From a bacterium (lineage in GTDB: Bacteria > ARS69), in the NCBI GenBank assembly GCA_025774805.1, contig JALGZR010000103.1, forward strand, positions 1 through 19,938: a stretch of DNA of 19,938 bases. The letters run 5' to 3'. A program made the translations under genes and the position numbers. Of this stretch, positions 6,775 through 8,550 are shown piece after piece. Within the stretch, counting starts at the first letter, position 1. The number at the start of each line of letters is the position of its first letter. The notes beneath the pieces are model-generated. The model worked only from the letters and a program-made list of their open reading frames with translations, was not told the DNA's origin and did no database searches.

Positions 6775-7161
6775 GTGGCTCGCATACTCGTCATCGACGA
6801 CGACATCCAGGTTCGGGAAATGCTCCGTGAGATGCTCGAGCGCGTCGGTCACGAAGTCGTGGACGCGTCGGACGGGACCGAAGGCATGAAGGTGTTTCGG
6901 AAGAGCCCCACCGATCTCGTAGTGACCGACATCTTCATGCCGGACAAGGACGGAATCGTCACGATTCAGGAGCTCAAGAACGAGTACCCGGAGGTCCCGA
7001 TCATCGCGCTCTCCGGCGGCGGAGGCTTCAAACGATTCGACTTCCTCGAGACGGCGCGGCGCCTCGGCGCATCCGCCCTTCTCCGCAAACCGGTCGACTG
7101 GGAAGAACTGACCGAAACCGTGAGCGAGATGCTCCGCAATCCCGACTGCCAGCCCCAGTAG
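6775..7161 (+). CDS. Single-domain response regulator (CheY-like receiver)
   Basis: A stand-alone receiver of 128 residues with no output domain, probably relaying phosphate from a histidine kinase encoded elsewhere. The acidic pocket is D8-D9-D10 (LVIDDD), the phospho-acceptor is D52 (VVTDIFMPDKDG), the switch residue is S80 (IIALSGGG) and the conserved lysine is K105 (LLRKPVDWEEL). The length matches a bare receiver. The GTG start at 6775 is preceded by AAGGGAGAG at 6762-6770; a nearby ATG at 6758 is out of frame. TATACT (6732-6737) is a possible -10 but I see no good -35. No kinase gene lies in the window, so the partner and pathway are unknown. Confidence 0.93.
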   Translation: MARILVIDDDIQVREMLREMLERVGHEVVDASDGTEGMKVFRKSPTDLVVTDIFMPDKDGIVTIQELKNEYPEVPIIALSGGGGFKRFDFLETARRLGASALLRKPVDWEELTETVSEMLRNPDCQPQ

Positions 7162-7201
7162 TCCGTCGACCCGGACGCCCGCTCCGCGGCCCGTCGGCCG
7201 A

Positions 7202-7221
7202 GGCGGGCCCTTGAGCCCGCC
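7202..7221 (+). terminator. Perfect stem-loop after the receiver gene
   Basis: GGCGGGC (7202-7208) pairs perfectly with GCCCGCC (7215-7221) around a 6-nt loop, 40 bases past the receiver stop. No U-tract follows. The 12-mer GCGGGCCCTTGA that forms its left arm and loop recurs at 7252-7263. Confidence 0.4.
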
Positions 7222-7259
7222 CACCGCCTCGCGACGAGCCTGCCGAGCAAAGCGGGCCC

Positions 7260-7302
7260 TTGACGACTCGATACCAATATGATATCATAATGGTATTAAT
7301 AC
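7260..7302 (+). promoter_or_regulatory. Promoter with triple 11-bp repeat operator for the SPFH/ribbon-helix-helix operon
   Basis: TTGACG (7260-7265), a 17-bp spacer and TATCAT (7283-7288) form a good sigma-70-type promoter in front of the SPFH gene. Laid over it are three consecutive 11-mers: GATACCAATAT (7270-7280), GATATCATAAT (7281-7291) and GGTATTAATAC (7292-7302). Read as inverted repeats, 7271-7296 is a near-perfect 26-bp palindrome centred on TGATATCA, and GTATTAATAC (7293-7302) is a perfect one. The block is strikingly AT-rich for this DNA. Phasing of one helical turn is typical of cooperative ribbon-helix-helix operators, and such a protein is encoded in the same operon; autorepression is inferred. 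Confidence 0.7.
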
Positions 7303-7345
7303 TGCCCGAATCGAAAGGAAATCGAAAGGAGGAGGTGGTCGGTCC

Positions 7346-8212
7346 ATGACCCGCGAAATCACGCGCAAGCCCGCTCCGGGCGCCATGATGCTCATCCTCA
7401 TCCTCGCCCTCTTCGCCCTCTCGCTCTTCATGCTGATCGGGGGCGCGGCCGACGGGGCCCTCGGACCCATTCTGCTGGGTGTCGCCGGCATCGTGATCTC
7501 GGTGGTCCTGTCGATCGGGTTCTTCATCGTGAATCCGAACGAGGCCGCAGTGCTCGTGTTCTTCGGGAGATACACGGGATCGGTGAAGAGGAACGGCTTC
7601 TTCTGGGTGAACCCGTTCACCGTCAAGACCAAGATCTCGCTGCGCGCCCGGAACCTCAACGGAGAGAAGCTCAAGGTCAACGACCAGGCCGGGAACCCCA
7701 TCGAGATCGCCGCCGTCGTGGTGTGGGAGGTCGAGAGCACCGCCCAGGCCCGCTTCGACGTCGACGACTACGAGGAATACGTCCAGACGCAGAGCGAGTC
7801 GGCCGTACGGCACCTTGCGACGAGCTATCCGTACGACTCGCGCGAGGACGGAGAGCCCTCGCTTCGCGGAGACATCGAGGGCGTGAGCGAGCAGCTCGAG
7901 AAGGAGCTCGGCGACCGGTTGGGCCGCGCCGGCGTGCGGGTGATCGAGGCTCGGCTCTCGCACCTCGCGTACGCGCCCGAGATCGCGGGGGCGATGCTCC
8001 AGCGGCAGCAGGCCGACGCGATCATCGCCGCGCGCGCCAAGATCGTGGAGGGCGCCGTGGGAATGGTCGAGCACGCGCTCGAGGATCTGAGTCGCCACGA
8101 GGTCGTCCAGCTCGACGAGGAACGGAAGGCCACGATGGTCTCGAACTTGCTCGTGGTCCTCTGCAGTCACCAGGAGGCGCAGCCCGTCGTGAACGCCGGC
8201 AGCCTCTTCTAG
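7346..8212 (+). CDS. SPFH (band 7/stomatin-like) domain membrane protein
   Basis: Integral-membrane scaffold-type protein of 288 residues. Two transmembrane segments lie at about 14-32 ([19 protein letters not shown]) and 43-62 ([20 protein letters not shown]), followed by an SPFH domain starting [20 protein letters not shown] and [10 protein letters not shown], with [25 protein letters not shown] in its centre. The C-terminal half is a charged helix ([20 protein letters not shown]...[21 protein letters not shown]) typical of the family's oligomerising coiled coil. SPFH proteins form large membrane assemblies and often regulate proteases or membrane stress; the job here is unknown. The ribosome site AGGAGGAGGT (7327-7336) lies 9 bases upstream. 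It is followed by a small ribbon-helix-helix protein, and the pair shares one promoter and operator. Confidence 0.9.
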
Positions 8213-8222: not shown

Positions 8223-8234
8223 TTCCGGCCCTCC

Positions 8235-8258
8235 GCCACCGCGCCACCGCGCCACCGC
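8235..8258. repeat. Three tandem 8-bp repeats GCCACCGC
   Basis: GCCACCGC occurs three times head to tail (8235-8242, 8243-8250, 8251-8258), then decays into GCCGCGCCGCGG. This is a small simple-sequence tract in the 101-base gap between the SPFH and ribbon-helix-helix genes; its copy number may vary between strains. Confidence 0.75.
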
Positions 8259-8313
8259 GCCGCGCCGCGGGGCGGCCGGCGGCGTTCATCGCCTCTCCGT
8301 TCCGGGGGACCGC

Positions 8314-8550
8314 GTGCCGAAGAGAAAGGCGTTCCTGTTGCGGATATCGCCCGATCTCTGGGAGGAGATCAGCGGGTGGGCGGCCGACGAGCTGCGCAGC
8401 GTAAACGGTCAGATCGAGTTCCTGCTCCGTCAAGCCGTTCGCCGGCACCGGACGGGAAAGCGCCAGGGATCCGGCGCGAGACCGCCCGGCCGAAGCGCGC
8501 GGGGACGCGCCCGGGACGACCGCGCCGCCGATTCGGAATCGAAGGGCTGA
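8314..8550 (+). CDS. Small ribbon-helix-helix (Arc/CopG-like) DNA-binding protein
   Basis: A 78-residue protein. Residues 3-47 form a ribbon-helix-helix: the beta strand RKAFLLRI, helix [15 protein letters not shown] and helix [18 protein letters not shown], with the usual N-G-Q/E-I hydrophobic pattern at helix B. The remaining 30 residues are an Arg/Gly/Ser-rich basic tail that looks disordered. The GTG at 8314 is preceded by GGGGGA (8304-8309) and places the beta strand at the N-terminus as expected. It is 101 bases downstream of the SPFH gene on the same strand. In this family the protein usually represses its own operon, and the three 11-bp repeats at 7270-7302 are a fitting site. No toxin-like gene is adjacent, so it need not be an antitoxin. 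Confidence 0.85.

Follow-up and report, generated by a model that had tools for sequence, protein, structure and literature searches.

Dimers of the ribbon-helix-helix (RHH) repressor Arc of phage P22 bind in a row over a promoter, to sub-sites with a spacing of about 11 bp, and the residues of Arc that contact bases include Q9 and N11. The omega repressor of inc18 plasmids, MetJ and CopG also place RHH dimers side by side on short repeats over their own promoters, with site spacings of 7, 8 and 9 bp, respectively. The heptads recognised by omega read NATCACN (PMC4803016). Among the genes for SPFH membrane proteins, those of the NfeD-SPFH operons (QmcA/YbbJ, FloT/YuaF) come with a small partner gene that is constant (PMC2636767). 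In the standard survey of SPFH proteins in prokaryotes, NfeD partners were assigned to three subfamilies, and the other SPFH subgroups were reported to have neither NfeD neighbours nor accompanying genes shared with known SPFH operons (PMC2636767). According to a Psp survey, a PspA/CesT-Tir membrane-maintenance operon ends in some cases with a gene for an RHH transcription factor (PMC11237479).

Here we analysed a stretch of bacterial DNA of 19,938 bp (the window), in which an SPFH gene is followed by a gene for a small RHH protein and preceded by a putative operator made of TGATATCA-like boxes. No NfeD gene adjoins the SPFH gene of the window, which places it outside the NfeD-associated class (SPFH1, SPFH2, SPFH5). 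Neither the SPFH/RHH pairing nor the TGATATCA site was found described in the literature searched, which included few subscription papers.

Features of the locus

The elements of the promoter region and the two genes have the following positions in the window.

7260-7265, + strand: -35 hexamer TTGACG from the promoter scan, here at -20 from the core box
7269-7276, no strand assigned: putative left operator box CGATACCA, matching TGATATCA at 6/8 positions, 11 bp before the core box
7271-7296, no strand assigned: 26-bp dyad ATACCAATATGAT/ATCATAATGGTAT, which takes in the core box and the greater part of each flanking box
7280-7287, no strand assigned: putative core operator box TGATATCA, palindromic and also part of the extended -10 (TGA-TATCAT, 7280-7288)
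7283-7288, + strand: -10 hexamer TATCAT from the promoter scan, inside the core box
7291-7298, no strand assigned: putative right operator box TGGTATTA, matching TGATATCA at 6/8 positions, 11 bp after the core box
7346-8212, + strand: gene for an SPFH/Band 7 membrane protein of 288 aa (Pfam PF01145, E=4e-24), the putative regulated gene
8314-8550, + strand: gene for an Arc-like RHH protein of 78 aa with a GTG start (Pfam RHH_5, E=1e-6), the proposed reader of the operator

The promoter region at 7260-7302 reads TTGACGACTCGATACCAATATGATATCATAATGGTATTAATAC. An earlier note on this DNA had described three adjoining 11-mers in an AT-rich block, and these were found at 7270-7280, 7281-7291 and 7292-7302, a span (7270-7302) with the highest AT content of any 33 bp in the window (lowest GC counts, 7-8/33). 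The period of 11 bp stood, but the register had to be corrected, as the units that matter are TGATATCA boxes, palindromic and each starting one base earlier than the corresponding 11-mer. The site consists of three 8-bp boxes with exact 11-bp spacing, CGATACCA-ata-TGATATCA-taa-TGGTATTA. Three direct 11-bp repeats alone are at chance level, with 14 equally good places in the window and 2-18 in Markov shuffles. The 26-bp dyad, with 13-bp arms that pair at 12/13 positions and no spacer, is near-perfect, lies over the -10 and exceeds chance, since the window contains a single dyad of this quality and 20 shuffles yielded none; the smaller palindrome GTATTAATAC (7293-7302) lies outside the conserved site. 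As GTATTAATAC was not seen in the aligned promoters of the closest relatives (L003-L005), we place the end of the site at about 7298. What really proves the block is its conservation.

The promoter TTGACG-17-TATCAT is present, with the repeats over its spacer and -10 as had been claimed, and it is one of two promoter-like matches in 5 kb, where 0.2 would be expected from shuffles of the region. A TG one base before TATCAT makes the latter an extended -10. The RHH gene had been placed two gene-lengths downstream; instead it adjoins the SPFH gene, 102 bp after the SPFH stop codon. Around the SPFH gene the window has a CheY-like receiver gene, the RHH gene and an opposite-strand gene without a Pfam match. 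The product of the upstream CheY-like gene (6775-7161) was rejected as a binder of the site, because it consists of a receiver domain only and has no DNA-binding domain. Other repeats were also present in this region. A perfect tandem AATCGAAAGGA x2 lies in the leader at 7309-7330, just 5' of the SPFH ribosome-binding site, and an CCGCGCCA-like 8-bp tandem repeat lies between the SPFH and RHH genes (8231-8265). An imperfect 26-bp duplication (7189-7214 and 7238-7263) has GCGGGCCCTTGA at its end, and its second copy runs into the -35 TTGACG.

Conservation of the three-box site

The SPFH protein (PF01145) has hundreds of relatives, and the best 80 were taken for comparison. Nearly all of these loci, contig permitting, carried an RHH gene like that of the window, and TGATATCA was found shortly 5' of the SPFH start. 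When 82 promoters were aligned on TGATATCA, the core was invariant or nearly so and two flanking boxes were conserved, with little else in common. After thinning to 76 non-redundant sites, secondary boxes with at least 6/8 matches to TGATATCA were counted at offsets from -44 to +44. They were found at -11 in 44 sites and at +11 in 58, in comparison to 0-2 boxes at each of the other offsets, except for 5 at -22; the site is therefore made of three boxes with an 11-bp period. This confirms statistically, as an exact 11-bp box period in the 76 non-redundant homologous sites, the spacing of one helical turn that had been suggested. The earlier note had also staked its proposal in advance on the recurrence of the 11-bp pattern upstream of homologous SPFH-RHH pairs, and the pattern was conserved in nearly every pair.

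With an automatic criterion, the site score exceeded that of all 50 shuffles in 170/175 loci with an RHH gene, and the core box was exact in 136/175. Of the five automatic failures, L016 and L156 have an exact box in the promoter alignments, L017 tied its shuffle maximum with an exact box present in the alignment, L258 is truncated where its contig stops, and only L259 is a genuine absence. The motif TTGAC is found at a distance of 19-21 bp 5' of the core in 17/76 sites, as compared to 0-2 at other offsets. In a further promoter type TAnnTTTG, the Bacteroidota -7 promoter element, starts 8 or 6 bp before the core (9 of 76 sites). In both promoter types the region contacted by RNA polymerase is covered by the site.

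The relatives come, with labels as deposited, from Latescibacterota, Acidobacteriota, Planctomycetota, Gemmatimonadota, Hydrogenedentota, Bacteroidota, Armatimonadota, Chloroflexota (SAR202), Pseudomonadota, Kryptoniota and an Omnitrophota bin, and Deinococcota and Bacillota were added from plasmid records. The three-box site is a deeply conserved, putative DNA switch before the SPFH gene in more than 10 phyla. Only two good boxes were seen in Lysobacteraceae-like loci, and in one lineage both flanks have changed in concert, from GATATCA/TGATATC to GATATAA/TTATATC. Symmetric positions of the left and right flanks were found to covary at several positions.

Occurrence of the site with the SPFH and RHH genes

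Of 148 Bacteroidota genomes, first searched with only the RHH protein as query, 33 carried RHH. SPFH was present in 32 and both genes in 32, and no genome had SPFH only. All 32 loci having both genes carried the site 5' of SPFH. The Bacteroidota RHH gene without SPFH (L167; G063 C52) has a degenerate triple box before its own start (p ~0.012). In 396 Pseudomonadota genomes, RHH was found in 54, SPFH in 56 and the adjacent pair in 53, with three genomes having SPFH without RHH; in 53/53 pairs, one or more boxes with a match of 7/8 or higher stood 5' of SPFH. Over all sets, RHH shares its strand with SPFH and is located downstream of it in 170/170. As far as gene order is concerned, this is the layout of an autoregulated operon, with the regulator gene behind the putative operator on the same strand. 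Apart from the RHH gene, no linked DNA-binding gene was found to be always present, and SPFH is the only constant partner of RHH in the window and most relatives.

Several of the operons contain additional genes. In one locus the RHH gene is followed, about 1.2 kb further downstream, by a second, weaker copy (G104 C15:95411-95530, within L160). Several Bacteroidota encode an extra protein of about 165 aa between SPFH and RHH (L014 3848-4339, L072 4008-4526, L142 2233-2745) with the shared stretches TRID..GIH..F.PF and YGGWG, and some of these operons also encode an alpha/beta-hydrolase-like protein. Phage and plasmid records held few relatives and no sign of a mobile-element system. The SPFH-RHH pair of L258 comes from an 'unverified phage' record from faeces (MT836356.1), which is probably bacterial DNA.

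No RHH gene was detected in ten SPFH loci. Two of these (L038 and L039) stop short of the expected RHH position, and both have the site. In the other eight, which have complete flanks (L257, L261, L262, L264, L267, L268, L269 and L270), the site was above shuffles in 0/8. The hypergeometric probability of this result is 6e-12 with 172/175 RHH-containing loci taken as positive, a figure that the relatedness of the loci makes too optimistic. Because five of these loci encode more distantly related SPFH proteins (36-49% identity), part of the absence may reflect another subfamily. L264, L267 (Deinococcus, 56%) and L268 (54%) lack RHH yet lie within the SPFH family. Among Deinococcus plasmids, those of NW-56 and QL22 have RHH and the site, whereas those of radiophilus and proteolyticus have neither. 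The plasmid loci L256 (Bosea) and L259 (Rhizobium) encode a divergent RHH protein without the conserved Trp, and the operator is weak or absent there; these RHH proteins possibly have a changed specificity. Operator distances correlated with RHH distances when corrected for SPFH distances, to a small extent (partial r 0.13, p 0.002), whereas no correlation was found between operator and SPFH distances corrected for RHH (r -0.01, p 0.58).

The full site (at most 3 mismatches) occurs in 1 place in the 5.1-Mb host genome. It was found exactly once in each of 12 of the 23 other genomes, always in the SPFH promoter, and a control with the reversed pattern gave 0. By these counts the putative operator is dedicated, not global.

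The RHH protein

In a search with a profile of 30 RHH members, P22 Arc was the best solved relative, with weak matches at the top of the list (1u9p, E 0.0019; 1arq, E 0.037). The Pfam family Arc was matched by 17/30 members, and PHROG gave an Arc-like repressor. The AF2 model of the protein (pLDDT 91) has the beta-alpha-alpha topology of RHH proteins, with helices at 13-25 and 30-49. Its nearest folds included AmrZ, Arc and CopG, with TM of about 0.66-0.8 and Foldseek E of only 0.17 and up. The invariant residues K5, R10, R28, S29 and N31 lie in the N-terminal strand and where the second helix begins. In the alignment, R10 corresponds to R13 of Arc, a base-contacting residue, and the RSxN motif is common to both proteins. 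The family shares with Arc-like repressors the fold, a sequence relation to Arc and promoter sub-sites at a fixed helical spacing. The comparative evidence points strongly to the RHH protein as the predicted binder of the three-box site.

Discussion

We propose that 7269-7298 is very probably the operator of a dedicated autoregulatory loop, in which an array of the Arc-like RHH protein on the extended -10 represses the SPFH and RHH genes. An RHH dimer would insert its two-stranded sheet into the major groove at the palindromic core TGATATCA and recruit one or two more dimers to the weaker boxes, which flank it at exactly one helical turn (11 bp). Two or three dimers would then be aligned on one face of the DNA. 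We infer that binding of the dimers is cooperative. Since the core box is at the same time the (extended) -10, the bound array would shut out RNA polymerase and both genes would be repressed. The second gene of the operon would in this way set its own level in a negative feedback loop. Release may come from a membrane-related signal, for example if the SPFH scaffold titrates the RHH protein; this hypothesis is modelled on PspA, which titrates PspF.

Repression is the likely sign of the regulation, to judge from the position of the site. That the RHH protein binds there and activates, or switches between repression and activation, is unlikely; some RHH proteins such as AmrZ and NikR act both ways, but in GC-rich lineages the -10 lies under the site and in Bacteroidota TAnnTTTG is next to it, and an operator over the -10 or adjoining a promoter element has the position typical of repression. 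It is very unlikely that the site is the operator of another, unlinked regulator and that the RHH protein has a different role such as that of an antitoxin. One relative was named 'HicB family antitoxin' by NCBI. However, the full site is present once per genome, it goes with the linked RHH gene and is missing from loci without this gene, and no toxin gene was recognised alongside. A type II toxin-antitoxin or defence system was rejected, as PADLOC gave no match for either protein and no linked toxin gene was recognised. The reading of the conserved core as merely an extended -10 (TGnTATAAT-like) in AT-rich promoter DNA, although TGATATCAT fits TGn-TATnAT and TTGAC lies at the right distance in 17/76 sites, is hardly tenable and as the sole explanation was rejected on the evidence of the +11 and -11 boxes, which are as specific as a binding site, of the same core in Bacteroidota, often with TAnnTTTG just before it, and of the lack of the core in homologues without RHH.

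We suggest, tentatively, that the module of RHH, three TGATATCA boxes and SPFH could have moved or been kept as a unit in more than 10 phyla with its 30-bp operator almost unchanged, and that SPFH might sense the membrane and control the repressor, which would make this a new one-operon membrane-stress response like Psp. An uncharacterised, widespread SPFH subfamily gains a candidate regulator and a putative 30-bp operator, and the latter could serve directly as a reporter in the search for the inducing signal, and hence for the function. The about 170 operator/repressor pairs, with their natural losses, are an unusually deep set for the co-evolution of RHH proteins and DNA.

In comparison to the NfeD-SPFH operons, the constant partner is here a predicted DNA-binding protein and not a membrane protein. 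The PspA/CesT-Tir operon is made of other genes, and no operator is described for it in the parts of the survey consulted (PMC11237479). The RHH protein of the window shares fold and family with P22 Arc, as indicated by the profile matches to 1u9p and 1arq, but the box is here a palindromic TGATATCA and there are three boxes instead of the two of Arc. At the positions of Q9 and N11 of Arc the family has mostly A/S/P and L/A/V/P, and the RHH gene belongs to a cellular SPFH operon, whereas Arc belongs to a phage immunity region. With omega, MetJ and CopG the locus would share RHH dimers side by side on short repeats over their own promoter, although the spacing is here 11 bp and the targets are unrelated. 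By analogy, the SPFH/RHH operator would work like those of Arc, omega, MetJ and CopG, and its breadth is unusual.
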